Below, piece after piece: positions 2,547-23,252 of a stretch of 24,184 nt of DNA. Within the stretch, counting starts at the first letter, position 1, and each line of letters opens with the position of its first letter. The position numbers were made by a program, and so were the translations under genes. The notes under the pieces are model-generated. The model searched no databases. It was not told the DNA's origin and saw nothing but the letters and a program-made list of their open reading frames with translations. The stretch is from a virus: IMG/VR virus record IMGVR_UViG_3300032516_000197, positions 1 through 24,184 of that record; one strand, written 5' to 3'.

Positions 2547-2561
2547 CTTTATTCTTTTTTA

Positions 2562-2600: not shown

Positions 2601-2634
2601 AATTTTTGACCAAGGACACCTCAATCCGTTTTTA

Positions 2635-3378: not shown

Positions 3379-3390
3379 TTTTTGTTAATT

Positions 3391-3416: not shown

Positions 3417-3422
3417 TAAAAT

Positions 3423-3455
3423 ATAAAAAGGAGAGTGCCTTTAAAGACACTCCCC
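3423..3455 (-). terminator. Intrinsic terminator directly after the major capsid gene
   Basis: On the minus strand GGGGAGTG, a 10-base loop and CACTCTCC form an 8-bp stem with one G-U pair, followed by TTTTTATAT. It begins about 13 bases after the capsid stop codon at 3469. Good stem, G/C-rich base and T tail support a real terminator that would raise capsid mRNA relative to downstream genes. Confidence 0.8.
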
Positions 3456-3468
3456 GATTTACTATATA

Positions 3469-4887: not shown

Positions 4888-4905
4888 TTTTTTTAATTTT
4901 TAAAT

Positions 4906-6051: not shown

Positions 6052-6072
6052 TTGATTTGATTTAATTTTTTA

Positions 6073-6080
6073 CAAAGCTA
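6073..6080 (-). promoter_or_regulatory. Candidate Bacteroidota -7 promoter box (TAGCTTTG)
   Basis: The minus strand reads TAGCTTTG 21 bases upstream of the ATG at 6051, in the 48-base gap between portal and scaffold-like genes. It matches TAnnTTTG; no convincing -33 TTTG lies at the right distance. Possible separate start for capsid transcription. Confidence 0.4.
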
Positions 6081-6099
6081 TACAATTTTTTTTAATATT

Positions 6100-10826: not shown

Positions 10827-11040
10827 TGCTTTCTTTTTCAGATTCTATTCTGCTAAGAATCTCAAATGCATCAAATATAGCTAATTTTTTTGTAGCCGCT
10901 GCATTTTTTAACTTATCAGCAGCTAAGTCATCTCCTTCCATATCAGGATTTAAGATTGACTCTTCAGCTACTTTTATGAGCTCTAATACTGCTTTATGTC
11001 CGGCAGCAATAATTTTTAATTTCGTTTCTTTAGCTGTCAT
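10756..11040 (-). CDS. Small helical protein upstream of TerL, possible small terminase subunit
   Basis: 94 residues, predicted almost fully helical and highly charged: KLKIIAAGHKAVLELIKVAE, then a central acidic stretch, KLKNAAATKKLAIFDAFEIL and a hydrophilic tail ending in FAERRSK. I recall the central AATKKLAIFDAFEIL pattern from hypothetical proteins just upstream of terL in uncultured phages. Size, helicity and place are compatible with a small terminase subunit, but no DNA-binding helix-turn-helix could be seen, so this is only a suggestion. It lies 4 bases after the oxygenase gene and overlaps the annotated TerL start. Confidence 0.5.
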   Translation of the reverse strand: MTAKETKLKIIAAGHKAVLELIKVAEESILNPDMEGDDLAADKLKNAAATKKLAIFDAFEILSRIESEKESIEMSEKGGTKTDTKQGFAERRSK

Positions 11041-11044
11041 ACAA

Positions 11045-11611
11045 TTATCTATAAAACATTACATATACCATTCGCCCCTCTTTCCAACCTGTGTTTGGAT
11101 ATTTACTATGAAAGTAATTAGAAGGATACATAAGTGCACGATTGGGTCTATATCCTACTACAGAATGTAAATCCCAATTATCTAAATTGTTTGCCTCCTC
11201 TGAAAGAAATCTATTAGTTTCTTCATCAGAGGTATCTAAAGACATCTCATAACCTACATCTTTATGCCTCCAAAAAGCGGTCCCGTGCAACCCTTCTTTT
11301 GTAGATGGAGATATATATAACACAAGTGCTCTTTCGGGTCTAATATCGCCTACTTTTGAGTCTGCGTGGATTCTCCAATCAGTATCGAACTCTTCAGTTG
11401 CTACTCTAAAAAATCCTAATAAACATTCCCTTTTGGTTTTATCTATATCGCTTAATTTTTCAATAATAAAATTATCAAATTCTACGCTACTATATTGAAC
11501 CCAAAACTTTTTATCTCCAACCTCAACTTCTTGAAACTGATTACTTGCTAATCCATTATAAATAGAATTATAAATATCTTCATCCAAGAAATCATCTATA
11601 ATGTTTATCAT
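11045..11611 (-). CDS. 2-oxoglutarate/Fe(II)-dependent oxygenase
   Basis: 188 residues. The iron triad is visible: H82-x-D84 in WRIHADS and the distal H168 in SNYFHSKYPNTG, followed by R180 in EGRMVYVMFY, the usual 2-oxoglutarate anchor. The stretch HGTAFWRHKDVG between them fits the double-stranded beta-helix fold of prolyl-4-hydroxylase-like phage oxygenases. Reaction expected: hydroxylation coupled to decarboxylation of 2-oxoglutarate to succinate; the substrate cannot be read from the sequence (protein side chain or modified base are both possible). Its ATG overlaps the stop of the GroES-like gene in ATGA, and it lies just upstream of terL, so it is made with the late proteins and may modify a virion protein. 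Confidence 0.8.
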   Translation of the reverse strand: MINIIDDFLDEDIYNSIYNGLASNQFQEVEVGDKKFWVQYSSVEFDNFIIEKLSDIDKTKRECLLGFFRVATEEFDTDWRIHADSKVGDIRPERALVLYISPSTKEGLHGTAFWRHKDVGYEMSLDTSDEETNRFLSEEANNLDNWDLHSVVGYRPNRALMYPSNYFHSKYPNTGWKEGRMVYVMFYR

Positions 11612-12171
11612 AGCTTTATGGTTATTTGATGGTCATACATACGATATAACTTCTCTCCATCAACAGTAAATTCGTATTCACTATCGGGAGAAAAACAAAT
11701 ATAATCGCCTTCTTTTATGCCTTTACTTAAAAGGTACTCATTTGGATAAACCATCTGACCCATTAACGGCTCTTCTTTTATGAATTTTTTTATGTAATAA
11801 TCTACAGCAGAGATTGGTCTAACAAAGCAATACTTATCATAAGCATTCCAAGTAGAATCTTTTTTATACATAAAGAATTGGTCTGTTTCTATAAAGAATA
11901 AATCATCTTTAAAAAAACTTTTGCCGCTTTTTTGACGACCTCTCATATCATTATAATACTTAAAAGCATTGTGATGAACGAGAAGTGTGTCTCCTATTGA
12001 TATAGGACCGGTATAGCCTACGGGAAGCTCGATAACTTCTGCATATCTGTTAGAGAACTTATGGTCCTCTTCTGAAGTACTGACGATAAAATCAATTCCT
12101 CCTATTTTTTTTGTGTTATCGTATCGCTTTCCATTCATAGGCCTTACTATGAAATAGAATGGAGATTTCAT
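11608..12171 (-). CDS. Two-domain GroES-like (cpn10-fold) protein
   Basis: 187 residues. Residues about 3-103 read like a co-chaperonin: FYFIVRPMN (first strand), a flexible stretch IGGIDFIVSTSEEDHKFSNR at the mobile-loop position, YAEVIELP (the RGEV strand), ISIGDTLLVHHNAFKYY (the VGD-V strand) and FFIETDQFFMYKK (the closing strand). Residues about 114-187 repeat the pattern: YCFVRPI, GQMVY, GIKEGDYICFSPDSEYEF, GEKLYRMYDHQITIKL. So the protein looks like a tandem duplication of the GroES fold. It is distinct from the 85-aa canonical GroES at 21373-21630. Being inside the head operon (TAATG overlap upstream, ATGA overlap downstream), a role in capsid folding or as a structural beta-barrel is inferred. 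Related phage proteins have, as I recall, been labelled GroES-like. Confidence 0.65.
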   Translation of the reverse strand: MKSPFYFIVRPMNGKRYDNTKKIGGIDFIVSTSEEDHKFSNRYAEVIELPVGYTGPISIGDTLLVHHNAFKYYNDMRGRQKSGKSFFKDDLFFIETDQFFMYKKDSTWNAYDKYCFVRPISAVDYYIKKFIKEEPLMGQMVYPNEYLLSKGIKEGDYICFSPDSEYEFTVDGEKLYRMYDHQITIKL

Positions 12172-12398
12172 TAAAAGTTTATATTAAATTCGATTGAAAT
12201 TGGTATAGTAGCAGTAAATTCTTTCCAAAGAACAACTTCTTCCTTCACATTAATAATATATATTAATATGCTTCCTGTTTCAGGTTGTCTTCTGATAAGA
12301 TGAATTGTATTTGAATCTCCAAGAATGGACTGACCAACAATGTAATGCATAGCACCACTTTTGTAGTCAGGTCCAATGGATATTTTACGAATATCCAT
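12171..12398 (-). CDS. Conserved phage hypothetical protein
   Basis: 75 residues, mostly beta-strand in character. The start, MDIRKISIGPDYKSGAMHYI followed by VGQSILGDSNTIHLI, and the end VLWKEFTATIPISIEFNINF match my memory of a small protein that accompanies GroES-like and terminase genes in uncultured phages. No cysteines, membrane segments or known catalytic motifs. Start and stop are joined to both neighbours by TAATG overlaps, so it is translated together with the GroES-like protein. Function unknown. Confidence 0.65.
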   Translation of the reverse strand: MDIRKISIGPDYKSGAMHYIVGQSILGDSNTIHLIRRQPETGSILIYIINVKEEVVLWKEFTATIPISIEFNINF

Positions 12399-12808
12399 TA
12401 AGATTCTTTTTTGACTAAGTACTCGTATAAAAACGACAATTCATTATAATTCAAGCCACGGGTTAAAATCACAAAATCTTCTTCATCAATTTTGTTTAAA
12501 TATTCAACTTGATATTCAACATCTGACAACTCAGTTAATGCAGAATTGATTTTTTCTTTTACTTCTTCCGGCTTGTCATTCCAATCGAAAACATCTTTAC
12601 CATCGACTTCTTTTTTATCTACTTCTAATTTAGATAATAATTCGTCTTGAATTGAAAAATGTTTCTTTACAACACTTTCTATAGATTTACTTAATCTAAT
12701 TACTGATATTGTAGTGTGAAAACTTTTTAAGTCTTTGTGGTTTTCACATTTACTAAGAACTGAATTTAAACTTAACAGTTCACTAACTTTTAATTTTTGT
12801 TTTGACAT
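12398..12808 (-). CDS. Hypothetical helical protein
   Basis: 136 residues, Lys/Glu/Ser/Leu rich and predicted mainly helical (VSELLSLNSVLSKCENHKDL, then SIESVVKKHFSIQDELLSKL and KIDEEDFVILTRGLNYNELS). No recognised domain. It is the first gene of the overlapping block that leads to terL, and its leader has four AAATT units followed by ATCAAATCAAATG, the same start context as the scaffold-like and GroEL genes. A late-operon accessory role is inferred from position alone. Confidence 0.6.
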   Translation of the reverse strand: MSKQKLKVSELLSLNSVLSKCENHKDLKSFHTTISVIRLSKSIESVVKKHFSIQDELLSKLEVDKKEVDGKDVFDWNDKPEEVKEKINSALTELSDVEYQVEYLNKIDEEDFVILTRGLNYNELSFLYEYLVKKES

Positions 12809-12810
12809 TT

Positions 12811-12840
12811 GATTTGATTTAATTTAATTTAATTTAATTT
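12811..12840 (-). repeat. AAATT/AAATC pentamer leader
   Basis: The plus strand GATTT GATTT AATTT AATTT AATTT AATTT is six tandem pentamers. On the minus strand it is an A/T-rich leader ending ATCAAATCAAATG at the start codon at 12808. Compare 3391-3416, 6052-6064 and 23253-23264. Confidence 0.55.
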
Positions 12841-12843
12841 TTA

Positions 12844-13062
12844 TTATACTATGCTTTCCAATTCTGTTTTTTGAGCGGCTGTCAGTCCTCCAACAAACCA
12901 ATCTTTTCCAAGCATTATTGATATATGCTCTTTATTTCTACTCAAAGTATCTACTTCTTCTTCTGTAATAACTTCTTGTGCTTGTAATTCATTAATTAAA
13001 CTTACTGAATCATAAGCAGCAGCTATACTTGACTGTACTTGTTCTTGTGTTAACTCTTCCAT
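12844..13062 (-). CDS. Small hypothetical protein downstream of the tail fibre
   Basis: 72 residues starting at MEELTQEQVQSSIAAAYDSV; an ATG 48 bases further upstream is possible but would overlap the fibre gene by 34 bases and add a poor lysine/asparagine-rich lead, so the inner start is preferred. The protein is acidic and helical (INELQAQEVITEEEVDTLSR, then a GKDWFVGGLTAAQKTELESI end). It lies 14 bases after the fibre stop. Small acidic proteins behind fibre genes can be tail-fibre assembly chaperones, but nothing in the sequence proves this. Confidence 0.6.
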   Translation of the reverse strand: MEELTQEQVQSSIAAAYDSVSLINELQAQEVITEEEVDTLSRNKEHISIMLGKDWFVGGLTAAQKTELESIV

Positions 13063-13076
13063 TTTTTTATATTTGT

Positions 13077-15260
13077 TTAAATTATATTTACTACTGTTCC
13101 ATTTCTCCACAAATCTCCTGCCACTAATCCTGTTGCTGACGTAGGAAGGTTAGCCATATTAACAGTTCCTCTAAGAAGTGTTTTTACTATAGCTGTGCTA
13201 CCCAATACAACAGTGTTACTTCCTGCGCCTACTGCTCCTGTACCTATTATTATGGAGTTAGTATTATTTATACCCAAAGTAGCTGTTCCTTGTCCAATTG
13301 CAACGTTTCCACTTCCGGTAGTATTTGCTCCTAATGCATTAAATCCAATTGCAACATTATTTGCTCCCGTTGTGTTTGCAGGCAATGACCCATTACCAAT
13401 AGCAGTATTGTTGATTCCTGTCGTACTAACTGACATTGAGTTATACCCAACAGCTGTATTGTAACTTGCTGTTGTAGCAGTAAGTAAAGCACTTCTTCCA
13501 ACTGCTGTATTTTGAAACCCTATAGTATTGGCTCTCAATGCTTCACGACCAAGTGCAGTGTTGTTGTTTGCTGTATTAAAATACAAAGCCTCATAACCAA
13601 CTGCTGTGTTTTGAGTTCCTGATACATTACTAAATAATGAACTTGTTCCAATTGCAACATTAAAAGAAGCTGTTGTAGATGAAAAAGATGCGTATGCTCC
13701 AAGCGATGTATTGCCACTTCCTGATATATTACTTCCTGATGCAAAATCTCCAACCGCGGTATTATCATTTCCTACAGTATTAGATTCTAAAGAATTATTA
13801 CCAACTGCGGTATTATTATCTCCAAAAGTATTAGATTGTAAAGAACGATTTCCAATAGCTGTGCAATAATCTGCTGCTTCATTAGTAGCCATAGACCTAA
13901 AGCCTACTGCTGTATTATTAAAACCGTTTATGTTAAGATTCATAGAATCCTTTCCAACTGCGGTATTTTGTAATCCTACTGTATTAGTTAAAAGTGCATT
14001 TTTTCCAATTGCAGTATTATCATCTGCTATGTTATTTTGCAAAGAAAGGTCTCCAATTGCTGTATTATTATTTCCTATTAAATTTGTAATCAATGACCCA
14101 AAACCTACCGCTGTATTAGAATTACCTGTCGTGTTTGAAGACAATGAACCATAACCTACCGCTGTATTAGCACTACCCGTTGTGTTCTCTGCTAATGAAT
14201 TTGAACCTATTGCAACGCTGCCTGAGCCTGTCGTATTATTAGCAAGTGAAGACTGACCAATTGCAGTATTACTACTTCCGGTAGTATTTGTGTTCATTGA
14301 AAGTTGACCGATTGCTGTATTAGAACTACCTGTTGTATTATTAGGTAATGAATTTTGACCAATTGCTGTATTTAAAAGTCCTGTTGTATTACTAAATAAT
14401 GAACTTGTTCCAATTGCAGTATTACCCCCCCCTGTTGTATTGTTAAATAATGAATTTTGACCAATAGCAGTATTAGAACTACCTGTTGTATTTGCATTTA
14501 ATGCTGTAAGTCCGAAACAAGTATTTGATGTTATATTTCCATTACCTTTTCCTGCACTTATACCATTTATTAATAAATCATTAGTAAACGACAAAGTGAA
14601 ACTACCCATAGTAACTACTCTGTTTCCACTTAAAGTACCATTTGAGTTGTATATATTAACTGATGCACTTCCGGTTGTAACACTTCCATCTGCCATTAAA
14701 AATTGAGCAGAAGTACCTCCTACCTTTACAAATGAATTTGCGGTTATTGTATTAGTTCCTAAATTAACATTTGTTGTAGCACCTGTGTAAGGCACATAAG
14801 TTGCTAACGCAGCTGCTGTAATGTAAACGCTACTGTCAATAGTACCGTTTGCTTTTAAAAATTGAGCGGCAGTTCCACCTGACTTTATGAAAGAGTTTGC
14901 GGTTATTGTGTTAGTCCCTAAATTTACATTTGTTGTAGCACCTGTGTAAGGCACATAAATTGATAATGCAGCCGCTGTAATATAGATACTGCTATCAACT
15001 GAACCATCAGCTTTTAAAAATTGAGAAGAAGTTCCTCCTGACCTTACAAATGAATTGGCTATAATAGGCAAAGTGGTAGTATTGCCTGCTGTTGTTACTG
15101 ATTGTAATGTATTAGTGACACCAATGGAAAATAAGTCCTTTATTGATTGAAGAGTAAAGTTAACCGTATTATTCTGAGGAGGTCCTCCTGCGGTTGTTCC
15201 GATTAATTTATCTGAAAGCTGAGGAGTTGAGTCTATTTCGTATGTGCTTATTTTTGCCAT
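13077..15260 (-). CDS. Tail fibre / receptor-binding protein with repeat shaft
   Basis: 727 residues. Residues 1-50 (AKISTYEIDSTPQLSDKLIG, later FTLQSIKDLFS) resemble the conserved virion-attachment domain of flavobacterial phage fibres. Then come two and a half copies of a 53-residue unit with FLKADGS, YVPYTGATTNVNLGTNTITA, and from about residue 245 to 670 roughly 24 copies of a 17-residue unit of the form NTAIGxxSLxxNTTGxx, like the left-handed beta-roll of YadA-type trimeric adhesin heads. The end (NSIIIGTGAVGAGSNTVVLG, then LPTSATGLVAGDLWRNGTVV) has no S74 chaperone domain. It probably forms a trimeric fibre that touches the host surface. No signal peptide. Confidence 0.85.
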   Translation of the reverse strand: MAKISTYEIDSTPQLSDKLIGTTAGGPPQNNTVNFTLQSIKDLFSIGVTNTLQSVTTAGNTTTLPIIANSFVRSGGTSSQFLKADGSVDSSIYITAAALSIYVPYTGATTNVNLGTNTITANSFIKSGGTAAQFLKANGTIDSSVYITAAALATYVPYTGATTNVNLGTNTITANSFVKVGGTSAQFLMADGSVTTGSASVNIYNSNGTLSGNRVVTMGSFTLSFTNDLLINGISAGKGNGNITSNTCFGLTALNANTTGSSNTAIGQNSLFNNTTGGGNTAIGTSSLFSNTTGLLNTAIGQNSLPNNTTGSSNTAIGQLSMNTNTTGSSNTAIGQSSLANNTTGSGSVAIGSNSLAENTTGSANTAVGYGSLSSNTTGNSNTAVGFGSLITNLIGNNNTAIGDLSLQNNIADDNTAIGKNALLTNTVGLQNTAVGKDSMNLNINGFNNTAVGFRSMATNEAADYCTAIGNRSLQSNTFGDNNTAVGNNSLESNTVGNDNTAVGDFASGSNISGSGNTSLGAYASFSSTTASFNVAIGTSSLFSNVSGTQNTAVGYEALYFNTANNNTALGREALRANTIGFQNTAVGRSALLTATTASYNTAVGYNSMSVSTTGINNTAIGNGSLPANTTGANNVAIGFNALGANTTGSGNVAIGQGTATLGINNTNSIIIGTGAVGAGSNTVVLGSTAIVKTLLRGTVNMANLPTSATGLVAGDLWRNGTVVNII
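13245..14527 (-). repeat. About 24 copies of a 51-bp repeat in the tail fibre gene
   Basis: The units encode 17 residues each of the form N-T-A-[IV]-G-x-x-[SA]-L-x-x-N-T-T-G-x-x; two units are 16 residues. They are diverged in DNA, so copy number is probably old, but the nearly identical inner units could still recombine. Boundaries approximate. Confidence 0.85.
14690..15060 (-). repeat. 159-bp repeat (2.5 copies) in the fibre N-terminal shaft
   Basis: A 53-codon unit carrying SGGTSSQFLKADGS and YVPYTGATTNVNLGTNTITA is present twice in full and once in part, at 159-bp spacing. The copies are closely similar at the DNA level. Boundaries approximate. Confidence 0.85.
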
Positions 15261-15269
15261 TTTTGTATA

Positions 15270-15611
15270 TTAGTTTAAAGTCAATAAGTATAAAATCTTG
15301 TCTGTTAATGCAATCATCTCATCCATTATATTCTGCAATTCAGAAGGATAATTTGCTCTTTCAGTATCAATGATTGAACGTAATTCTTTCAAATGAGAAG
15401 TAGCGTCTAAAATTTTTGATTCAGGTATTACTATCTCAACTCTTTTAAATCTACCAAAATAAGCCTCGGTAAATTTATCTGTCAAATCAAGTATTCCATC
15501 ATAATAAGCATTTAATGCTTTATGCTCTGCAAACGATGTCGTTTGAAGGTGTGCGATGTGCATTGCATCTCTTGAATGGAACAATGTTCCGATAAATTTT
15601 CCCGGTGTCAT
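15270..15611 (-). CDS. Ferritin-like phage protein (DUF5856-type)
   Basis: 113 residues. The start MTPGKFIGTLFHSRDAMHIA continues HLQTTSFAEHKALNAYYDGI and LDLTDKFTEAYFGR, which I recognise as the DUF5856 family of phages, predicted to be a four-helix bundle like Dps/ferritin. H17, H20, H30 and E42-type residues fall along the first two helices in positions where such bundles bind metal or pack, but iron binding is not shown by this. It lies 2 bases upstream of the stop of the next gene and just before the fibre gene. It may be a virion or tail-associated protein; function is not known to me. Confidence 0.6.
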   Translation of the reverse strand: MTPGKFIGTLFHSRDAMHIAHLQTTSFAEHKALNAYYDGILDLTDKFTEAYFGRFKRVEIVIPESKILDATSHLKELRSIIDTERANYPSELQNIMDEMIALTDKILYLLTLN

Positions 15612-15612
15612 C

Positions 15613-15849
15613 TTACTGTGCGTTTTTAGTTACTTCTCCTGTTTGAATATTAATTACAGCGTCTGCGCCATATTTTTCAACTAACAATTGTTCGTGTTTA
15701 GTGAACTCAACTTTTAATTCGTCAATATGCCTCAAGATACTATGCTTTTGTAATTCAGAATCTCCAAGTGCTATCTTAGCTTGATTGAATTTAGAGTTCA
15801 TTTCTTGAATTTTAGCAAGTTCTTCTTGCGTTGCTTTTAAATTTTTCAT
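15613..15849 (-). CDS. Conserved phage coiled-coil protein
   Basis: 78 residues. Residues 5-60 are one long heptad-like helix (ATQEELAKIQEMNSKFNQAK, then GDSELQKHSILRHIDELKVE), ending in LVEKYGADAVINIQTGEVTK. I recall this ending as strongly conserved in Bacteroidota phage hypothetical proteins. Function unknown; a coiled-coil virion linker or assembly protein is possible. A TATCTTTG box lies 27 bases upstream of the ATG, suggesting its own transcription start before the fibre genes. Confidence 0.7.
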   Translation of the reverse strand: MKNLKATQEELAKIQEMNSKFNQAKIALGDSELQKHSILRHIDELKVEFTKHEQLLVEKYGADAVINIQTGEVTKNAQ

Positions 15850-15876
15850 TTTTATTTAATTTGATTTGTTAGATTA

Positions 15877-15884
15877 CAAAGATA
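15877..15884 (-). promoter_or_regulatory. Candidate Bacteroidota -7 promoter box (TATCTTTG)
   Basis: The minus strand TATCTTTG matches TAnnTTTG in the 53-base gap between two genes, 27 bases before the ATG at 15849. No TTTG -33 box at the right distance. Confidence 0.4.
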
Positions 15885-15902
15885 TAAAAAAAACAATGCT
15901 TA

Positions 15903-16310
15903 TTATTTACATTTAGCTTTACCGCTATTATTAGTGTAAATACATCTACCCTTGTCTCCAAGTGGATTTAATCTACTTAATAAACTTGGTCTATCCGTAT
16001 TAGCACTTTTGGTCTCTTTCATTTTACCACCGCCTTCAACTTCTGTAAATTTTACCTTGCTATCGTTTTTTACTTTTTTAGCATACTCGTCAACGGTTAA
16101 TCCTCGTCTTTCAGCTCCTTGTTTAAATTTTTCTGTCATTCTATTTGTTACATCTTGACTTATAGAATCTTTATATTGTTTAACTCTTTCCATTCCTCCC
16201 TTTTGTTTCAACTCAGCTATTTTTTTTGCTTTTTCAGGCTGAGACATTTGCTGCCAAGTTTTAGGGTCAGGAGTACTTGCTAACGGGGTGTCGGGTCTTT
16301 GAATTGCCAT
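15903..16310 (-). CDS. RPDTPLA-tagged basic hypothetical protein
   Basis: 135 residues, lysine-rich. The N-terminus MAIQRPDTPLASTPDPKTWQ carries the RPDTPLAxTP signature shared with three proteins at 20080-20911, about 4 kb away. The rest is helical and charged (SQPEKAKKIAELKQKGGMER, then AERRGLTVDEYAKKVKNDSK) and ends in NPLGDKGRCIYTNNSGKAKC-K with a Cys pair. No known enzyme motif. It lies 5 bases downstream of the candidate spanin gene and ends 53 bases before the next. The shared tag plus basic body suggests a virion-packaged or assembly-associated protein; that is inference. Confidence 0.65.
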   Translation of the reverse strand: MAIQRPDTPLASTPDPKTWQQMSQPEKAKKIAELKQKGGMERVKQYKDSISQDVTNRMTEKFKQGAERRGLTVDEYAKKVKNDSKVKFTEVEGGGKMKETKSANTDRPSLLSRLNPLGDKGRCIYTNNSGKAKCK

Positions 16311-16315
16311 AATTT

Positions 16316-16789
16316 TTAGAATAAAGTTTTGTTAATTTTTTTGTACATATAGAATCCAATTACAATAAGAAGCAACACTAAAAGCCACCACAAATAAATT
16401 GAATAATTAGTTTTTTTATCAATTTCCTTTTTAAAGGTTTTTACTGAAGTATCTTTTTTTACATTAACTTCAATTGAGGCTTTTTCAGACACTTTTATTT
16501 TTGTAGTATCTACTAATACCTTTTTTGTTTTTTTATACTTCAGTTTTACGTTTTTGTATTTTTTTCCATCTACTTCAATACATTTTGAAGTGTCAATAGG
16601 AACTATTTCTAATTCATCAGTATTTGTTGTAATACTAATGTGATTATCTTGAGTCGTTACACTTTCTTTTTTTGTTACAGAAGTACTGTCTGTTTTTATT
16701 TGAGAATCTACTTTGTTTATATCTACTTTTCTTGCAGCGCAAGAAGTGATAAGAACAAGTACTACTATATATAATATTAACTTTTTCAT
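16316..16789 (-). CDS. Lipoprotein with C-terminal membrane anchor, candidate unimolecular spanin
   Basis: 157 residues from MKKLILYIVVLVLITSCAAR; upstream in-frame ATGs lie inside the previous gene and give an implausible lysine-rich lead. Residues 1-16 are a lipoprotein signal with lipobox LITS-C17. Residues about 25-125 are a Lys/Thr/Val-rich periplasmic stretch of beta character. Residues 131-148 (IYLWWLLVLLLIVIGFYM) form a transmembrane helix with a basic tail. An outer-membrane lipid anchor at one end and an inner-membrane helix at the other is the topology of a u-spanin such as T1 gp11, which fuses the two membranes at the end of lysis. It overlaps the upstream gene by one base (TAATG), in a row with endolysin and holin. 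The role is inferred from topology and context. Confidence 0.6.
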   Translation of the reverse strand: MKKLILYIVVLVLITSCAARKVDINKVDSQIKTDSTSVTKKESVTTQDNHISITTNTDELEIVPIDTSKCIEVDGKKYKNVKLKYKKTKKVLVDTTKIKVSEKASIEVNVKKDTSVKTFKKEIDKKTNYSIYLWWLLVLLLIVIGFYMYKKINKTLF

Positions 16790-17061
16790 TAACAATTCCA
16801 TTTTCTTAATGCTAATGCCTTTCTTGTTGGTTCTCCGTTTGGTTTTTTCATAGGACCTTCCATTCCTCCCATACGAGCACAAAAAGACTTTCGTCTATTA
16901 GCATCTTTACTTCCGGGTTTTAATTTAGAAGGTTTAGTGGTAACAGCCATTTTTAATTTGCTTCCCGGATTAGCAGCTCTATAACTTGCTACTCCTTTAG
17001 CATTCAATCCTCCTGTTTCAGATTTACCTTCTTTTCTTGTCCAAGCTGCTGTCTTTGCCAT
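16789..17061 (-). CDS. DUF6321-like small basic phage protein
   Basis: 90 residues starting at MAKTAAWTRKEGKSETGGLN; the start 30 bases upstream would overlap the endolysin gene and is less likely. AWxRKEGKxxxGGLNAKGxASY at the start and RRKSFCARMGGM, then KPNGEPTRKALALRKWNC at the end are the pattern I know as DUF6321, a family common in phages. Very basic, with two Cys near the C-terminal half. It sits between endolysin and candidate spanin with a 2-base gap and a TAATG overlap. Function unknown; its place in the lysis set may simply reflect late expression. Confidence 0.75.
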   Translation of the reverse strand: MAKTAAWTRKEGKSETGGLNAKGVASYRAANPGSKLKMAVTTKPSKLKPGSKDANRRKSFCARMGGMEGPMKKPNGEPTRKALALRKWNC

Positions 17062-17063
17062 AA

Positions 17064-17528
17064 CTATTCTTTTATTTGAAAATGCATCCAATCGTAATTT
17101 TTCTCTCTTCCTAATGACTCGAATCCGTATTTATAGAATATGTCAATCATTGGTTTGTATTCAGGTCGAGCAAATCGAGCAGTTTTCGATGTCTCTTTTA
17201 ATAAATTTCTTGCCGGGTCTAAGTCAACTGCTATTCCCCAAGAGTGAGTTGACCAAGCAGACCCACCTCTCATTTTTCGATAGTTGAAACATCCACCAAA
17301 CAAATCAATTCCTAATTCTTTTATTTTGTTAGAACCATAGTGAGCAAGTATATCAGCAAAAACTGCTTTAAATTTATCAGCCACTAATTTATGACACATC
17401 ATTGTAGTTACATTTGTATCAATATCCCAAGCAAGACGCATAGGATATGGAAGTTGAATTTTTACCAAATAATTAACTCCCGTTTCATTGGGAGTTCCAT
17501 ATTTTTTTGTAATTTGTTGTGTTGTCAT
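17064..17528 (-). CDS. Endolysin, M15-family peptidase (L-Ala-D-Glu / VanY-like)
   Basis: 154 residues, no signal peptide. The zinc motif SxHxxGxAxD is at 93-102 ([11 protein letters not shown]95 and D102), and the third ligand is H149 in DWMHFQ. R84 in [11 protein letters not shown] precedes it as in M15 peptidases. These residues fit a metal-dependent peptidase that cuts peptidoglycan stems. Without an export signal it needs the holin encoded just upstream; the holin ATG/stop of this gene share 1 base. Followed by a DUF6321-like gene and the candidate spanin, so it forms a lysis cassette. Confidence 0.9.
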
Positions 17529-17959
17529 TATTGTAAATTGTTTATATTTTGCTTCACTTCTTTTGCTCTTAAAAATGCTTTTTTAAGCAATTGCCAAATG
17601 TCAACTTTAAAAGTCTCCTCAACATTTTCTTTTATAGAAACCAACTCTATAAAAATTAACATTATTGCACATATCTTAGTAAACATATAGTCAAACTTAA
17701 ACCAATGGAATACAAATTCATTTAAAACAAATTTATCTATTAAAAAAAGGAACAAAATACATATCTCATATAATGCCATTTTTGATATTATATTTGACAA
17801 GACTCTACTCCTAATGCTTGCCCATCCTTTTAATTTTACACTTTTAAAAATTCCTGTAAAGGTATCAAGAATTATTGCTGCTGCTACCGCAATTAAAAGC
17901 CCGTGTATCGGAACAAATAATAATATTAGCGATGAGAATATGTAATTTATATATTTCAT
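17528..17959 (-). CDS. Holin
   Basis: 143 residues with three hydrophobic segments at about 6-31, 58-76 and 92-108 and a basic tail ([13 protein letters not shown]). Residues 32-39 (DTFTGIFK) carry the D-x-x-T-G-x-x-K signature after the first helix that I know from the toxin-secretion/phage-lysis holin families of Gram-positive and Bacteroidota phages. It ends in the start codon of the M15 endolysin gene and begins in a TAATG overlap with the upstream 44-aa gene. It should form membrane lesions that release the endolysin to the periplasm. Confidence 0.8.
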
Positions 17960-18093
17960 TATCTTCCTTGTCCTCTATACGCTTTCACGTAGTTTTTACT
18001 TGATTTTAAAGTGCTCGTTTTAGTCTTTGCAGCTACGCCTGACTTCTTTGGTTTTGCTTTATAAGCACTATCTTGTTGTTTTACTTTTGCCAT
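17959..18093 (-). CDS. Small basic protein (44 aa)
   Basis: A short frame from ATG at 18093 to TAA at 17959: it starts MAKVKQQDSAYKAKPKKSGV and ends SKNYVKAYRGQGR. It contains 14 Lys/Arg in 44 residues and no hydrophobic segment. The stop overlaps the holin start as TAATG, the same coupling seen at other real gene joints here, and only 1 base separates it from the upstream stop; both support a real gene. It resembles the other MAK-starting micro-proteins at 19751-20064 in style. Function unknown; DNA or RNA binding or virion packing is possible. Confidence 0.6.
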   Translation of the reverse strand: MAKVKQQDSAYKAKPKKSGVAAKTKTSTLKSSKNYVKAYRGQGR

Positions 18094-18094
18094 T

Positions 18095-18583
18095 TTACCA
18101 AAGAGCTAATACATTAGTAGCTGTAGTTCCTGTTGCTCTAAGCTGTACAATTTGAATAGGAAGAATTGTTCCAACAGGTACTGATAAAAAAGTTACAATA
18201 TCTCCACCTATAGTAACAACAGATACATTTCCTGCTCCACCTATATACAAATTACATCCTTCGTTTGCTATTCCTGATTGAGGAGACATTCCATAAACAG
18301 AAAAAGTTTTACCTGTAGCAGTGAATATATTTGCATTTAATGTTAATTGAGTTTGACTATCTACATTTAATACAGTTGCAGCAGTTCCATCGGTATCATT
18401 ATGAACAACATCTCCTGCCCTTACATTATCTGAAACAAATGTAGCTGAACTACTTATTAATTTTAAAGACGTTGAGGTGGTATTTGTTCCTGTGTCAACA
18501 AAACTATATGGAACTGCAATATCAGCATTGTCTGATTTATGCGCTATTATCGCTCTTGAAAATTGTGATTTGAATACTGACAT
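18095..18583 (-). CDS. Beta-rich virion protein, possible capsid decoration protein
   Basis: 162 residues, Thr/Ser/Val/Gly rich with little helix, typical of head decoration or tail surface proteins. Residues about 36-98 (SLKLISSSATF, RAGDVVHND, QTQLTLNANIF, KTFSVYG) match the inserted beta module in the ring protein at 1581-2546 and more weakly that in the capsid protein. The C-terminal 60 residues (GCNLYIGGAGNVSVVTIGGD, then FLSVPVGTILPIQIVQLRAT) look like strands that would sit on a surface lattice. The downstream small gene starts one base after its stop, and the upstream gene's stop overlaps its start. Role inferred from composition and shared module. Confidence 0.55.
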   Translation of the reverse strand: MSVFKSQFSRAIIAHKSDNADIAVPYSFVDTGTNTTSTSLKLISSSATFVSDNVRAGDVVHNDTDGTAATVLNVDSQTQLTLNANIFTATGKTFSVYGMSPQSGIANEGCNLYIGGAGNVSVVTIGGDIVTFLSVPVGTILPIQIVQLRATGTTATNVLALW

Positions 18584-18765
18584 TATTTTAGTATTTTATT
18601 GATTAATAAATCGGGGTTATTTAATTTTTCTTTTCGTGCCTCACATCCACAAGGTACTCCTGTAATTTCAGAAACTTTTTCAACAACAGTTTTTATTCCT
18701 GTTGCTGTCGTTACTTTTTCAATAACATCTCCAAAGCCAAGTCTTTTAGTTCTTATATAGTGCAT
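18583..18765 (-). CDS. Conserved small phage protein with CGC motif
   Basis: 60 residues. It reads LGFGDVIEKVTTATGIKTVV, then SEITGVPCGCEARKEKLNNP. The G-L/F-G-D-x-I-E-K-V-T-x-A-T-G-I-K plus C-G-C-x-x-R-K-E-x-L-N pattern is one I recall from many phages of Bacteroidota and T4-like groups, always without assigned function. Two cysteines around one glycine could bind metal with a partner. A TACCTTTG sequence lies only 3 bases upstream of the ATG, too close for a normal leader. The stop overlaps the next start by 1 base. Confidence 0.7.
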   Translation of the reverse strand: MHYIRTKRLGFGDVIEKVTTATGIKTVVEKVSEITGVPCGCEARKEKLNNPDLLINKILK

Positions 18766-18775
18766 AACAAAGGTA

Positions 18776-18895
18776 TTACTTTTTTTTATTTTTTTGAACA
18801 GGTAGTTTACTTACGTTCCCTTTTAAAAACTTCATCTTACCATCTAATGATTTCTTAGACTCGTATTGTTTTGCTTTCTCAGTTACTTTTTTCAT
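18776..18895 (-). CDS. Small basic protein (39 aa)
   Basis: A frame from ATG at 18895 to TAA at 18776. It starts MKKVTEKAKQYESKKSLDGK, continues MKFLKGNVSKLPVQ and ends in NKKKK-type lysines. It fills the gap between two clear genes with 3 bases to the upstream stop. Lysine-rich, no hydrophobic core. Could be chance, but spacing and composition match the neighbouring micro-proteins. Function unknown. Confidence 0.5.
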   Translation of the reverse strand: MKKVTEKAKQYESKKSLDGKMKFLKGNVSKLPVQKNKKK

Positions 18896-18898
18896 CTT

Positions 18899-19237
18899 TT
18901 AAATTTTAGTCACACGATTACCCATTCCAACTTTTGATTTTTCTGCTTTTTTAGCAGTCAATTTAGATTTGCTTATTTCAGATATGGTTTTTGGTGTTTT
19001 TGAAGATACTTTTACTTTTGGCCTACAATACTCATTACTTCCTCCCGCACCACAAGCTTTGCCTGTTTTAGTATCAGTCCATTTTTCTTTATCCCATCTT
19101 TTTAGAGATGTTCCTGCTTCTGTTTTTCTAACAACGCCTGAACCCTTCCTACATTTAGCAATAGCTTGTGACGCTCTTGCAGATGGAAAAACATCGTACT
19201 GAGCTTTTACTTTTTTATAACACGCATCTTTTGGCAT
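18899..19237 (-). CDS. DUF5872-like Cys/Lys-rich phage protein
   Basis: 112 residues, very basic. The first part, ACYKKVKAQYDVFPSARASQ followed by AIAKCRKGSG, is the pattern I know as DUF5872 from phages. The second part, SLKRWDKEKWTDTKTGKACG and NEYCRPKVKVSSKTPKTISE, is a further Cys-containing unit I recall as often fused to or near it. Four cysteines spaced in two pairs could form a small metal-bound core. It starts in the stop codon of the next upstream gene (1-base overlap). Function unknown; such proteins are often late, and may be virion components. Confidence 0.7.
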   Translation of the reverse strand: MPKDACYKKVKAQYDVFPSARASQAIAKCRKGSGVVRKTEAGTSLKRWDKEKWTDTKTGKACGAGGSNEYCRPKVKVSSKTPKTISEISKSKLTAKKAEKSKVGMGNRVTKI

Positions 19238-19527
19238 TAGTACTTTCCTTTACGATTACTTGGATTTGGTGTTGTTGAACCTCCCGACCCTGCCCATAAA
19301 TTTTTACAAGCCCAATATCGGGGAGTTAGTTTGTCATTTGCGGTATCACAACTATGCCTTGCTTTAAAACTTCTTCTTGCAGCAGGACTATAGTTATTAC
19401 CATATCCTTTTGCTCCAAAATGGAGAAGTTTTTCTTCTCCATTGGAACAAGCTTTTACCATCTTCTTCTTCCCCGGTCTATCCGAAGGAACAGGTCGATT
19501 ACATTGCATTTTTGACTTATTGGCCAT
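19237..19527 (-). CDS. Conserved Cys/Arg-rich phage protein (SFxARHxCD family)
   Basis: 96 residues. The core KKKMVKACSNGEEKLLHFGA, then AARRSFKARHSCDTANDKLT and PRYWACKNLWAG matches a small protein I recall from cyanophages and many uncultured marine phages, where SFRARHxCDxAxDKLxxxYWxCKxW is near invariant. Basic, with Cys at 9, 27, 60 and 74 or nearby, suggesting a metal-binding fold. It stands beside the DUF5872-like gene with a 1-base overlap. Function unknown to me. Confidence 0.75.
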   Translation of the reverse strand: MANKSKMQCNRPVPSDRPGKKKMVKACSNGEEKLLHFGAKGYGNNYSPAARRSFKARHSCDTANDKLTPRYWACKNLWAGSGGSTTPNPSNRKGKY

Positions 19528-19528
19528 T

Positions 19529-19580
19529 TTACTCAGGAGTTACTTCAGGAGTTGCTTCAGGAGTTACTTCTTCAGGAGTT
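19529..19580 (-). repeat. 12-bp tandem repeat encoding TPE units
   Basis: The plus strand shows repeated TTCAGGAGTTAC or TTCAGGAGTTGC units, four copies with one 3-base insertion, encoding VTPE/ATPE at the C-terminus of the 67-aa protein. Confidence 0.75.
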
Positions 19581-19732
19581 ACTTTAGAAGCTCCTCTATT
19601 AAAATCTCTGCTGCCATTTCCCGGGTCTTCTCTTTCAGGAGGGGGAATATTTAAAATAACCTCCACAGTAGGAGTTGTTTCGATAATAGGAACTATTTCG
19701 GAAACTACTTTTTTGTTTAATTTACCTGCCAT
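19529..19732 (-). CDS. Pro/Glu/Thr-rich small protein with repeated tail
   Basis: 67 residues. A short hydrophobic-alternating start (AGKLNKKVVSEIVPIIETTP, then VEVILNIPPPERED) is followed by a C-terminal tail built from VTPEEVTPEATPEVTPE, encoded by a tandem 12-bp repeat. It lies 1 base upstream of the next gene's start region. Low-complexity composition makes family assignment impossible. The tail is likely disordered. Function unknown. Confidence 0.5.
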   Translation of the reverse strand: MAGKLNKKVVSEIVPIIETTPTVEVILNIPPPEREDPGNGSRDFNRGASKVTPEEVTPEATPEVTPE

Positions 19733-19750
19733 TTTTTTAAAATTTAATAA

Positions 19751-19918
19751 TTAACAATAAGGGTTTTTACCACCCATACCTTTTCCTGATGCCGATTTTG
19801 TAACCTTACGAGTTACGCCATTAGTATCAGCTTTTAATTTAATACCGGAACTTGCTACTGAAGTACTTGGCATCTGCATACGAGATGAACCCGGTAAGTT
19901 TGGAGTGTCTTTAGCCAT
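19751..19918 (-). CDS. Small basic protein (55 aa) with TPNLPGSSRM motif
   Basis: A frame from ATG at 19918 to TAA at 19751, beginning MAKDTPNLPGSSRMQMPSTS and ending in SGKGMGGKNPYC. The start resembles that of the next upstream protein (MAKVKATPGLPEASRKKMPM): both have MAK, TPxLP, an S-R and a following MP. Lys/Gly/Ser rich, no hydrophobic segment, a single terminal Cys. Gaps of 2 bases upstream and 18 bases downstream fit the tight packing here. Function unknown. Confidence 0.55.
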   Translation of the reverse strand: MAKDTPNLPGSSRMQMPSTSVASSGIKLKADTNGVTRKVTKSASGKGMGGKNPYC

Positions 19919-19920
19919 TT

Positions 19921-20064
19921 TTATTTCTTTTTAATGTTTGCTTTTACACCTGCCGCTTTGGATGGTGCTTTGAATCCATTTTTGTTTGCAGGTTTAGCTG
20001 CTGCCATTGGCATTTTTTTTCTTGATGCTTCAGGTAATCCGGGTGTTGCTTTTACTTTTGCCAT
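19921..20064 (-). CDS. Small Ala/Lys/Pro-rich basic protein (47 aa)
   Basis: A frame from ATG at 20064 to TAA at 19921: MAKVKATPGLPEASRKKMPM, then AAAKPANKNGFKAPSKAAGV and KANIKKK. The composition (13 Lys, 11 Ala) is like histone H1 or other nucleic-acid condensing tails. It shares the TPxLPxxSRxxMP lead with the 55-aa neighbour, so the two may be paralogues. It follows the 97-aa RPDTPLA protein by 15 bases. A role in DNA condensation in the head is speculation. Confidence 0.55.
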   Translation of the reverse strand: MAKVKATPGLPEASRKKMPMAAAKPANKNGFKAPSKAAGVKANIKKK

Positions 20065-20079
20065 TTTGTTTTTATTTAT

Positions 20080-20373
20080 TTACGTTGTTTTTATTTTAGT
20101 TCTATCTGCGAATGATGCTAATCCATAAAGTCTTGAACCTTCTCCTGCAATAGACTTTCTTCCTTTACTTCTTTCTATTCTTGCCGCATCAAGCTTTGCT
20201 TGAGTTTCATTTTTAGATGCCTGCCTTTCAGCGCTTCTTTTATTAATATCATCTATTATTGATTTTAAATTTGTAACAGGTGTAGTTGCATCAGGTGTTT
20301 CTGCCAATGGAGTATCAGGCCTTTTAACCGCATCAGCTTTTCTTTCTTCCTTTGTTTTTTTTACAATTCCCAT
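20080..20373 (-). CDS. RPDTPLA-tagged hypothetical protein (97 aa)
   Basis: 97 residues. RPDTPLAETP is at 18-27 after a basic lead (MGIVKKTKEERKADAVK). The body is helical and charged (LKSIIDDINKRSAERQASKN, then KLDAARIERSKGRKSIAGEG). No Cys, no membrane segment, no known domain. It is one of three adjacent proteins with the same signature. Six bases separate it from the upstream gene. Function unknown. Confidence 0.6.
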   Translation of the reverse strand: MGIVKKTKEERKADAVKRPDTPLAETPDATTPVTNLKSIIDDINKRSAERQASKNETQAKLDAARIERSKGRKSIAGEGSRLYGLASFADRTKIKTT

Positions 20374-20378
20374 AGTTT

Positions 20379-20570
20379 CTATTGTTGAGGTGTTTCAGGT
20401 GCAGTAGGCACGATTGCTTTGATTTTATCTATAGCACTGTTTGCAGTTTGCTCAAATTTTGTAGCAACTCTTTGCTGAGGCATACCTCCAATTTGTGTTG
20501 TAGGTTGTAAGCCTGAACTAACAGGTTGTGGTTCAGGCGTTGCCGCTAATGGAGTATCAGGTCTTTGCAT
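20379..20570 (-). CDS. RPDTPLA-tagged hypothetical protein (63 aa)
   Basis: 63 residues. RPDTPLAATP begins at residue 3 of the protein, directly after Met-Gln. It is followed by a Pro/Gln-rich linker (EPQPVSSGLQPTTQIGG) and one short amphipathic helix (KFEQTANSAIDKIKAIVP), ending TAPETPQQ. It looks like a tag plus disordered linker plus short helix. Two bases separate it from the upstream gene. Function unknown. Confidence 0.55.
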   Translation of the reverse strand: MQRPDTPLAATPEPQPVSSGLQPTTQIGGMPQQRVATKFEQTANSAIDKIKAIVPTAPETPQQ

Positions 20571-20572
20571 TG

Positions 20573-20911
20573 TTATTTATTTTTTTTAAAAAGATTTATT
20601 ATTTTAGGACCTAAATCATTTCTTCTTGTAGCATTATAAAGTCTTTCGTCTCTATTCTCATCAGTAATTGGTGGAGGAGTAGCCGCTAATGGTGTATCAG
20701 GTCTAAGAACTTTTTTACCTTGTGATTCACGATTAAGTTTGCTTTCTGACTTCATTATAAACTCATCAGCCTGCGCCTTTCTTTTGTTTAGAGACTCCTT
20801 TCTATTCTCAGCCCTATCTTCCATCCTGTTAGCAACTTTTTTTGCTCTTTCAGGATTTGTTTCGGCTATTCTGCCAATTCTTTTATATTGACCGGGTCTT
20901 AATTCTTCCAT
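20573..20911 (-). CDS. RPDTPLA-containing basic protein, first gene of the late leftward operon
   Basis: 112 residues, Arg/Lys/Glu-rich. Residues 1-65 are a charged helix region (ELRPGQYKRIGRIAETNPER, then KKVANRMEDRAENRKESLNK). RPDTPLAATP is at 69-78, followed by a short C-terminal part ending LGPKIINLFKKNK. Here the signature is internal instead of N-terminal. It is the first minus-strand gene after the divergent promoter at 20931-20974 and so likely begins the transcript that continues into the lysis and fibre genes. Function unknown. Confidence 0.65.
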   Translation of the reverse strand: MEELRPGQYKRIGRIAETNPERAKKVANRMEDRAENRKESLNKRKAQADEFIMKSESKLNRESQGKKVLRPDTPLAATPPPITDENRDERLYNATRRNDLGPKIINLFKKNK

Positions 20912-20930: not shown

Positions 20931-20974
20931 TAACTTTGTACAAATGTATAAAAAAAAAATTAAATGAAATCAAA
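20931..20974. promoter_or_regulatory. Divergent promoters around a TTTGTACAAA palindrome
   Basis: On the minus strand TTTG (20974-20971), a 22-base spacer and TACATTTG (20948-20941) match the Bacteroidota -33/-7 pattern, 30 bases before the ATG at 20911. On the plus strand TAACTTTG (20931-20938) is a -7 box 25 bases before the ATG at 20964, with no clear -33. The two -7 boxes meet in the perfect 10-bp palindrome TTTGTACAAA (20935-20944), so RNA polymerase could load only one way at a time, and the palindrome could be an operator. Confidence 0.55.
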
Positions 20975-21407
20975 TCAAGATGATTACCTAAAATATTGGA
21001 GAGTCATTCGCCAATTCGCAAAAATTAAATACGAACTAACTCAGGCTGACTTAGATATGCTATTGTTCTTATACTCTGAAAAGTATTTTGGAAAAGATAA
21101 GTTTGAAGAGTTTGACAGTCTTTTAGGTTGGGATGTAACTCGTTTCTTCAGACTTCAAAAAGATGGGTGGATTGTAAAGTTTAGAAATAGAGTTGGCAAT
21201 AGAAAGGCTCTATACCAATTGACAGTCAAATCCACGAGAATGATTCAATCACTTTATAGAAAACTAAGCGGGGAAGAAATCCCCGTTAGTAATTCTAATA
21301 ATAAAATGTTCTTAAAGAACGTATCATATTCAGACAAAGTCTATCGCGATATGATTATCGAAATGAACAAAGTTATAAAACAACAACGACATCATTCTCG
21401 CGAATAA
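20964..21407 (+). CDS. Putative winged-helix transcriptional regulator
   Basis: 147 residues, the only plus-strand gene in the window. Residues about 10-45 give two helices (YWRVIRQFAKIKYELTQADL, then DMLLFLYSEKYFG), residues 50-68 a helix-turn-helix-like segment (FDSLLGWDVTRFFRLQKDGW), and residues 68-87 a basic wing with strands (VKFRNRVGNRKALYQLTVKS). This is the layout of a MarR-like winged helix. The C-terminal 50 residues are basic and helical. It is divergent from the late genes and its 3' end overlaps groES by 35 bases in the opposite direction. A role in controlling the late promoter is inferred from position. Confidence 0.55.
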   Translation: MKSNQDDYLKYWRVIRQFAKIKYELTQADLDMLLFLYSEKYFGKDKFEEFDSLLGWDVTRFFRLQKDGWIVKFRNRVGNRKALYQLTVKSTRMIQSLYRKLSGEEIPVSNSNNKMFLKNVSYSDKVYRDMIIEMNKVIKQQRHHSRE

Positions 21408-21630
21408 TTGTGTATTGCTTATCATCAATCAGCATTGTAAATCCGTGCGCCTTATCGTAGTAGATGTCATCATCTTTTTTGATATGCGGTACATCAGTAC
21501 CGCTTTCTACTACTAAGCCACGCTTGTAACGCATCTGATTCATATCTTCTCCCGATAGAAACAATCCTGATTCAGTTTTTAACTCTTCATCAATGGTCTT
21601 GATGACGATGTATTTACCAATTGGTTTCAT
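21373..21630 (-). CDS. groES: Phage co-chaperonin GroES
   Basis: 85 residues, about 10 shorter than bacterial GroES. It begins KPIGKYIVIKTIDEE, then KTESGLFLSGEDMNQMRYKR: residues 16-34 correspond to the mobile loop, with the hydrophobic tripeptide L-F-L (23-25) in place of I-V-L, which docks on GroEL. Then RGLVVESGTDVPHIKKDDDI (the V-x-x-G-D region) and FTMLIDDKQYTIIRENDVVV (closing strands). The roof loop is short. It follows groEL by 11 bases; in bacteria the order is usually groES first. Would cap the phage or host GroEL ring during folding of capsid proteins, by analogy with T4 gp31. Confidence 0.85.
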   Translation of the reverse strand: MKPIGKYIVIKTIDEELKTESGLFLSGEDMNQMRYKRGLVVESGTDVPHIKKDDDIYYDKAHGFTMLIDDKQYTIIRENDVVVVL

Positions 21631-21641
21631 AGTTTTTAGTT

Positions 21642-23252
21642 TTAAGATTGTTCATAGCTACGCGCTAATGTAATTATTGCATCGGTGCTCAAAATTGTCA
21701 CAGCTACACTCACAGCATTTTGTAATGCACTTCGCGTTACTTTCAATGGGTCAATTACTCCCATCTTAATCAAGTCTCCATACTCTCTTGTCTTCAAGTT
21801 GTATCCTTGACCTTCAGCAATACCATCTTTGTAAATATCTTCAGCTTTCAATCCTGCGTTTGCAAGTATCTGTAAGAACGGAGCCATAAGTGCTGCCTTC
21901 AAAATCATCATAGCTGCATTATACTCAGGACTTTTATCCTCATCTATAGCCAAAGCCGCTGACTCTTCAAGTAAAGCTTTCCCTGCGCCCGGAAGAATCC
22001 CCTCTTCAAGTGCTGAACGTACCGCGCAAACAGCATCATCAACTCTGTCGTACAACTCTTTCTGCTCCAAGTCTGTCTGTCCACCCACAAAAATAACCCC
22101 AATTCCACCTGTTAATGAAGCAATTCTCTCCAATAAATGGTCCTTTTCGTGCTTCTTTGTTGCGTTTTTATGCGAATCCCATAGCTGACTTACCCTCTCA
22201 TCAATAGTTTTTTGGTCTAATTTCAAGTCTGACCTGACAATAACAGTCTTATCTTTACTTACAATTACCTTAGCTGCGTGTCCAAGGTCTTCATAATTAA
22301 TGATACTCAAGTCATCTCCTGTCTTTTCGCTGAAGTATGTAGCGCCAACACTAATAGCAATGTCTTGCATTAACTCGTGTTGCTTATATCCAAATGCCGG
22401 AGGCGCAACTGCGCATACTTTGATAAGTCCTTTTACAACATTAGCTGCCAAACTGTTAATCAAGTTCTGATTGCACGGAGATATAATTAATAACTTCTTA
22501 CCTTGTTGTACAATTGGTCTAAACACTTCCTCAATCTGAAGAACATTTGTAATCTCCATATCAGCAACCATAACCATAGCATCCTCAAATACGCACTCAT
22601 CTTTCTTTTGGTCATTGATAAATATTGGACTCAAGTACCCTCTGTCAAATTTCAACCCCATTGTGGTCTCAGCATAGGTCTCATCGTTCTGACTCTTCTC
22701 CACCGTAACAATACCTGTCTTGCCGACATCTTTGTATACCTCTGAGATAATCTTCCCAATCTCCCTGTCGTTATTTGCCGATATACTCGCTACATCTGTA
22801 AGCATTGTACTTGTAACTCTCTTGCTACGTCTTCGTAACTTGTCCACCACCTTGTCGCTTATCTCCACCATACTTCTCAGAACCTCTGTCCGGTTCAATC
22901 CTTCAGTGATATGCTCAAGTCCACTCAATACCAATCCTTCAGTGAGGACAATGGCAGTTGTCGTACCATCTCCTGCCGAAGTAGCAGTCTTCTCAGCGGC
23001 TTCCTTCATCATCTTAACCGCAAGGTTCTCCGAAGGGTCCAATAAATCAATTGATTTGGCAACAGTAACTCCATCTTTGGTAACTGTGATACCGTGAGTA
23101 TGGTTTGGAGATTCAATAAGTACAGGATTACCTCCCGGACCTAATGTACTTTTTACAGCTTTGGACATTTTCCTAACGCCACTTACTAATTTTCCTCTTC
23201 CTGCCGCCCCAAACTCTAAGTTTTTTGGGGAATAACCTTGATTTTCTAACAT
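21642..23252 (-). CDS. groEL: Phage chaperonin GroEL (Hsp60)
   Basis: 536 residues, full-length three-domain layout. ATPase residues are kept: D60 (TKDGVTVAKSI), D95 (AGDGTTTA), D406 (YDRVDDAVCAVRSALEEG) and D501 (GVIDPLKVTRSAL). Changes: TLGPKG is TLGPGG (no Lys at 40), and the GGG loop is PGAG (421-424). The apical substrate/GroES site is partly kept (RGYLSPIFIN; the usual Tyr is Ile). The C-terminal GGM tail is missing; it ends ITLARSYEQS. Paired with groES. Leader ATCAAATCAAATG and a TATATTTG box lie upstream. Two 60-base lines in the 5' half have 50-53% G+C, above most neighbours. Likely folds phage structural proteins in place of or beside the host machine. Confidence 0.95.
   Translation of the reverse strand: MLENQGYSPKNLEFGAAGRGKLVSGVRKMSKAVKSTLGPGGNPVLIESPNHTHGITVTKDGVTVAKSIDLLDPSENLAVKMMKEAAEKTATSAGDGTTTAIVLTEGLVLSGLEHITEGLNRTEVLRSMVEISDKVVDKLRRRSKRVTSTMLTDVASISANNDREIGKIISEVYKDVGKTGIVTVEKSQNDETYAETTMGLKFDRGYLSPIFINDQKKDECVFEDAMVMVADMEITNVLQIEEVFRPIVQQGKKLLIISPCNQNLINSLAANVVKGLIKVCAVAPPAFGYKQHELMQDIAISVGATYFSEKTGDDLSIINYEDLGHAAKVIVSKDKTVIVRSDLKLDQKTIDERVSQLWDSHKNATKKHEKDHLLERIASLTGGIGVIFVGGQTDLEQKELYDRVDDAVCAVRSALEEGILPGAGKALLEESAALAIDEDKSPEYNAAMMILKAALMAPFLQILANAGLKAEDIYKDGIAEGQGYNLKTREYGDLIKMGVIDPLKVTRSALQNAVSVAVTILSTDAIITLARSYEQS

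Follow-up and report, generated by a model that had tools for sequence, protein, structure and literature searches.

The window analysed here is a virus record of 24,184 bases from a tailed phage related to phages of marine and freshwater Bacteroidota. PHROGs profiles recognise TerL, portal, a virion structural protein, an endolysin-like protein, groES and groEL within it. Almost all of its genes lie on the minus strand, and the only well-supported plus-strand gene encodes a 147-aa predicted winged-helix protein (the regulator gene). The 52 bases between this gene and its minus-strand neighbour contain two −7 boxes on opposite strands. TAACTTTG on the plus strand and TACATTTG on the minus strand, the latter read as CAAATGTA on the plus strand, are separated by the 2-base centre TA and with it span 18 bases, and the first-pass annotation was exact in describing back-to-back boxes that build a perfect palindrome, TTTGTACAAA (table 1). 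The long minus-strand run to the left also carries further candidate internal promoters. On the right, groES and groEL converge on the regulator gene; their 3′ ends overlap, so that groE transcription could run antisense through the regulator gene toward the promoter.

Table 1. Features at and around the divergent −7 boxes (positions in the window).
Feature	Position	Strand	Remarks
Minus-strand gene run downstream of the leftward promoter (small proteins, peptidase, TerL, portal, virion structural protein etc.)	639..20911	−	
Stretch replaced in relative L005	20565..20913		Covers just one gene, the first of the leftward operon
Small protein of 112 aa, encoded first downstream of the leftward promoter	20573..20911	−	Replaceable cassette
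−7 box TAACTTTG, putative rightward promoter (regulator gene)	20931..20938	+	Exact in 67 of 81 distinct loci, one mismatch in 14
Palindrome TTTGTACAAA, two TTTGTA ends with a common TA	20935..20944		Self-complementary centre in 23 of 81 loci; spacing 0–6
Predicted leftward transcript start	20935..20936	−	Same 4–5 nt F. johnsoniae rule
−7 box TACATTTG, putative leftward promoter (first gene of the virion operon)	20941..20948	−	Exact in 81 of 81
Predicted rightward transcript start	20943..20944	+	F. johnsoniae −7-to-start distance of 4–5 nt (PMC6847099)
A-rich short leader of the regulator gene, without Shine-Dalgarno	20945..20963	+	Read from the sequence
147-aa winged-helix protein, MarR-like predicted fold	20964..21407	+	
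Possible −33 TTTG of the leftward promoter (CAAA on plus)	20971..20974	−	Inside regulator codons 3–4; 22 bases from the −7 box
groES and groEL, convergent with the regulator gene	21373..23252	−	3′ ends overlap by 35 bp (21373–21407)

The predicted divergent starts are 7–9 bp apart. Leaders that lack a Shine-Dalgarno sequence are usual in Bacteroidota (PMC6847099). Two other readings of the spot were rejected. A terminator or RNA hairpin is not indicated, as folding is no better than in shuffles (z −1.1 and +0.4), and a conserved upstream ORF in the leader was dismissed since the length of the A-run and the ATG of CAAATG differ among loci.

In a single window the box pair is only mildly unusual by itself. 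One TAnnTTTG-N0-6-CAAAnnTA pair is observed against 0.10 expected per window, and at least one occurs in 9% of 300 dinucleotide shuffles. The palindrome was likewise discarded as a rare feature: the window has 18 perfect 10-bp palindromes, with about 33 in shuffles, and so no enrichment. One window proves little, and therefore comparison across the family had to decide; on that comparative evidence, the significance of the site comes from its conservation across the regulator family.

Scanning viral contigs with the 147-aa protein recovered 26 loci. A profile scan gave over 500 matches, of which the best 80 were kept. The comparison set consists of 81 distinct loci, the window included. An exact CAAAnnTA stands directly upstream of the regulator gene in all 81. 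A TAnnTTTG-like plus box lies 0–6 bp to the left of it, again in all 81 (67 exact, 14 with one mismatch), an agreement that is partly built in, because the pair search admitted only exact minus boxes and tolerated a single mismatch in the plus box; no locus failed. What separates the boxes is variable. The spacing is 2 bp in 34 loci, 3 in 33, 5 in eight, 6 in three, 1 in two and 0 in one, and the centres include TA, TAG, CA, CTA, CAA, TCTTG, AAAAA and TGAATA. Only 23 of the 81 have a self-complementary centre. On the regulator-protein tree the spacing has changed a minimum of 23 times, a count to be read with the relatedness of the loci in mind, since they are not 81 independent cases and recombination may inflate tree change counts.

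The boxes themselves show a different pattern of constraint. Among locus pairs with fourfold sites 20–40% identical, the fixed box positions are at least 92% (plus) and 100% (minus) identical, and the free nn positions only 35–50%. On the tree, these free positions have changed no fewer than 15 times (plus) and 18 times (minus), never to G. G is found there in none of 80 loci on either strand, as against 11 of 40 box-like strings inside window genes. In Flavobacterium johnsoniae, RNA-seq narrowed the −7 consensus down to TAHHTTTG, the frequency of G at the two free positions being 'virtually zero' (PMC6847099). The exclusion of G was not built into the pair search, and it favours real promoters on both strands. 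The first-pass annotation had proposed overlapping divergent promoters and a search of related phages for the same arrangement. The promoters are supported, as both boxes fit TAHHTTTG and are kept while centre, spacing and left gene change; the search recovers the box pair in the 81 loci, but a symmetric centre in only 23 of them.

A −33 element is doubtful, above all on the plus side. A TTTG at spacing 21–22 from the minus box is present in 41 of the 81 loci, inside coding sequence, and the plus promoter has a −33 TTTG at no consistent position across the set. The Ser codon is TCA in all 38 main-clade MKSN members (TCA-AAT is invariant), a constancy confounded by start-codon context and shared ancestry. 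The −33 element is poorly conserved in Flavobacterium and rarely shown by its promoters (PMC6847099).

The two boxes are not equally strict. Degraded forms of the minus box do not occur, while some lineages have a weakened plus box; this suggests that transcription toward the virion genes is the essential direction and that the regulator gene is the tuned side. The 14 plus boxes with a mismatch may mark lineages in which rightward firing is weak. The same asymmetry, together with the lack of a consistent −33 for the plus box, could be taken to mean that the leftward promoter alone is genuine, with a rightward box that is in part a chance match or a relic and a regulator gene transcribed by read-through or from a cryptic promoter. 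This is very unlikely. Of the 81 plus boxes 67 are exact; their free positions change repeatedly and still avoid G; and read-through from the left is not available, because the regulator gene is the only plus-strand gene of its block.

The 147-aa protein matches PHROG 17028 (unknown function; E 5e-12) and, weakly, a 'transcriptional regulator' PHROG. An NCBIfam SarA-type profile matches at 9.4e-5, below cut-off; no Pfam or NCBIfam model scores above cut-off, and a profile search of solved-structure sequences gives no significant match. The AlphaFold2 model, for which the alignment was built from contig-derived relatives only, is a winged helix with the MarR helix order (mean pLDDT 73, pTM 0.63; residues 107–127 uncertain), in line with the earlier description of the plus-strand product as winged-helix-like. 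Foldseek matches are mostly MarR members (best E 2.7e-4, TM ~0.47). Likeness to MarR/SarA regulators lies in the predicted helix order and the wing, and the best PDB matches are AbfR, MepR, TcaR and Tm0710; the protein differs from them in its very low sequence identity, and the C-terminal part of the model is uncertain. VIA gives MarR-family matches with Z up to 9.3 (rmsd 2.8, 97 aligned), with the N-domain (activation domain) of T4 MotA close behind at Z 7.9 (rmsd 3.1, 91 aligned). This near-tie gives no decision between a repressor-like and a polymerase-contacting role.

The MarR-like predicted fold raises the question of whether TTTGTACAAA is an operator, as the first-pass annotation had suggested. 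A MarR-type dimer bound to its half-sites would cover both −7 boxes, repress its own gene and gate the virion operon. The weak SarA/MarR profile matches agree with this, the homologue in MW202828 carries the GenBank label 'repressor protein', and many MarR loci have a divergent gene pair. A dimeric MarR-type protein is, however, expected to keep its half-sites at a fixed spacing. The centre instead ranges over 0–6 bases, with the many changes noted above, and is symmetric in a minority of loci. The contrast is sharpest between close relatives. The regulators of L010 and L039 are 97% identical and share the same predicted recognition helix, yet the centres beside them are TAG and TA; those of L059 and L070 are 86% identical beside centres of 3 and 6 bases. 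Near-identical regulators beside different spacings lower the operator reading, which we regard as quite unlikely. The half-sites TTTG and CAAA are already accounted for as ends of the −7 boxes, and there is no second copy of TTTGTACAAA in the 24-kb record. The palindrome is probably a by-product of two promoters and not a binding site for the regulator: it arises because two TTTGTA ends (late boxes read TAnnTTTGTA) share a self-complementary TA, and an operator is not needed to explain it.

Single TAnnTTTG boxes stand upstream of late genes at 2562, 6073, 15877, 23279 and 23903, all on the minus strand, and upstream of the same genes in the related genomes G003, G005 and G007. Their conserved places suggest that they are internal late promoters. 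Several of these single late boxes read TAnnTTTGTA.

The preferred reading is a compact bidirectional promoter for the host primary sigma factor (Bacteroidota sigma-ABfr type) with an incidental palindrome, to which we assign a probability of about 0.78. The abutting TAHHTTTG boxes on opposite strands, 2 bp apart here and 0–6 bp apart in the family, would drive diverging transcripts: leftward into the ~20-kb virion/late operon and rightward into the MarR-like winged-helix gene. The open complexes of the two directions would overlap in the base pairs that they need, so that polymerase could occupy the site in only one orientation at a time, and strong firing one way should depress the other direction. 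The anatomy of the site, its conservation, the lost symmetry and its place in the genome are observed; promoter activity in both directions, the starts, polymerase competition and any action of the 147-aa protein are what we infer from them. The earlier statement that only one strand can be used at a time holds as a fair steric argument; in E. coli, competition matters only if one direction is strongly active (PMC12825309).

Bidirectional promoters of E. coli and other prokaryotes (Warman, Grainger; PMC12825309) likewise have opposed core elements that share or abut in a short stretch. Their starts diverge within ~10–23 bp, polymerase binds one way at a time, and they often drive mRNA on both sides (PMC12825309). 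The phage site differs in having Bacteroidota −7 boxes in place of TATAAT, in boxes that abut and share no bases, in its smaller predicted start separation (7–9 bp), and in being conserved at a single phage locus while its spacing drifts. Both boxes match the sigma-ABfr promoters of Bacteroidota (TTTG / TAnnTTTG; TAHHTTTG in Flavobacterium; PMC6847099, PMC9723704), as do the absence of G at free positions and the short A-rich leader without Shine-Dalgarno, whereas the pairing back to back and a −33 that is weak or embedded in coding sequence set the phage site apart. The site most likely belongs, judging by its sequence, to the known class of bidirectional promoters, in a Bacteroidota form conserved at one phage locus. 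The pLS20 conjugation switch (PMC4207663) is similar in its divergent overlapping promoters, regulator gene and long operon; a switch and DNA looping are reported there, whereas no operator emerges from the sequence comparison at the phage site.

A further claim, compatible with the bidirectional promoter and additional to it, is that a regulator made early turns the site toward late transcription. Of the two arms, one leads into virion genes and the other into the gene for a protein of DNA-binding type, polymerase orientation would be exclusive, and regulators of E. coli, SoxR among them, are able to impose a single orientation on bidirectional promoters (PMC12825309). The layout of relatives weakens this early/late switch, which was part of the first-pass annotation and now seems unlikely. 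In MW202828, G005 and G007 the early/replication-type genes form one plus block and ~40 kb of virion genes lie on the minus strand; within that virion block, beside groES/groEL, the regulator gene stands alone on the plus strand. G003 has the same layout on the opposite strand. The early/late divergence of MW202828 is at ~43.8 kb, ~3 kb from the regulator. With the regulator inside the late block of these near-complete genomes, the site is not the early/late boundary. It is comparably improbable that a phage MarR-/MotA-like protein sets the direction of host polymerase through contacts with polymerase, or with DNA beyond the −7 boxes, and not with the palindrome. If true, such a protein would let the phage balance virion output against its own regulator by polymerase orientation.

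Gene turnover beside the promoter is considerable. Relative L005 is 99–99.6% identical to the window outside 20565–20913, and homology restarts at 20914, just outside the promoter. Across the comparison, 27 left-gene families stand beside the same promoter block, seven of them flanking the main clade. The exchange at the promoter edge in L005 and the number of left-gene families indicate that the promoter block is kept while its first client gene is swapped. Near-identical phages (L013 and L014; the window and L005) exchange or gain a gene after the leftward promoter, with breakpoints beside it. Short repeats coding for RPDTPLA lie near the left breakpoint and could anchor recombination.

The arrangement extends to more distant relatives. 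The cultured Maribacter phage Panino has TATCTTTGCAAAGATA, with spacing 0, ahead of a two-gene version of the locus whose protein is ~40% identical; the divergent starts of this zero-spacing version would flank TATCTTTG/CAAAGATA. Seven MAG-binned contigs carry an exact box pair at spacing 1–3. In three near-full-length relatives the intergenic double site occurs only at the regulator locus. In MW202828 and L120 the order of the boxes is reversed, and no box pair lies right at the regulator gene in Elemovirus, Callevirus, L116, L121 or L122; in Elemovirus and Callevirus the gene lies within a co-directional operon. Upstream of the 'repressor protein' gene of MW202828 (L003 ~3936–3965), a 9-bp inverted repeat, TGTCACAAA/TTTGTGACA, extends over both of the opposite-order boxes, and it is a possible operator in that lineage.

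Host genomes were surveyed for the same layout in 41 Flavobacteriaceae-like genomes (the family of the G017 bin), with per-genome counts summed. Double sites number 124 against 60 in the reversed control at spacing 2, and 123 against 63 at spacing 3; at spacing 15 they number 92 against 94. At ~3 per genome per spacing and ~2x control, this is a modest enrichment only, and the double site was rejected as a general host architecture. The layout is uncommon in hosts.

A literature search with 'phage' and TANNTTTG, judged by title, found no published promoter study of these phages. The loci offer a naturally replicated series of apparent sigma-ABfr bidirectional promoters with spacings of 0, 1, 2, 3, 5 and 6 bp. 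If active, the site would be a concrete sigma-ABfr example of the bidirectional promoter, one retained despite extensive gene turnover. It also illustrates that, read in a single genome, two paired promoters can be mistaken for the operator of a regulator.

Two features of the proteins encoded in the window may be added. The motif RPDTPLAxTP occurs in four otherwise different small proteins (16266–16292, 20290–20316, 20532–20558 and 20672–20698, minus strand). Each of three related near-full genomes has two to three copies, 55 partly overlapping loci have 131, and MW202828 has none. Synonymous changes among the copies make the conservation look protein-level. The protein in scaffold position (4906–6051, minus strand) contains a glutamine/glutamate repeat of EQQQEQ units.
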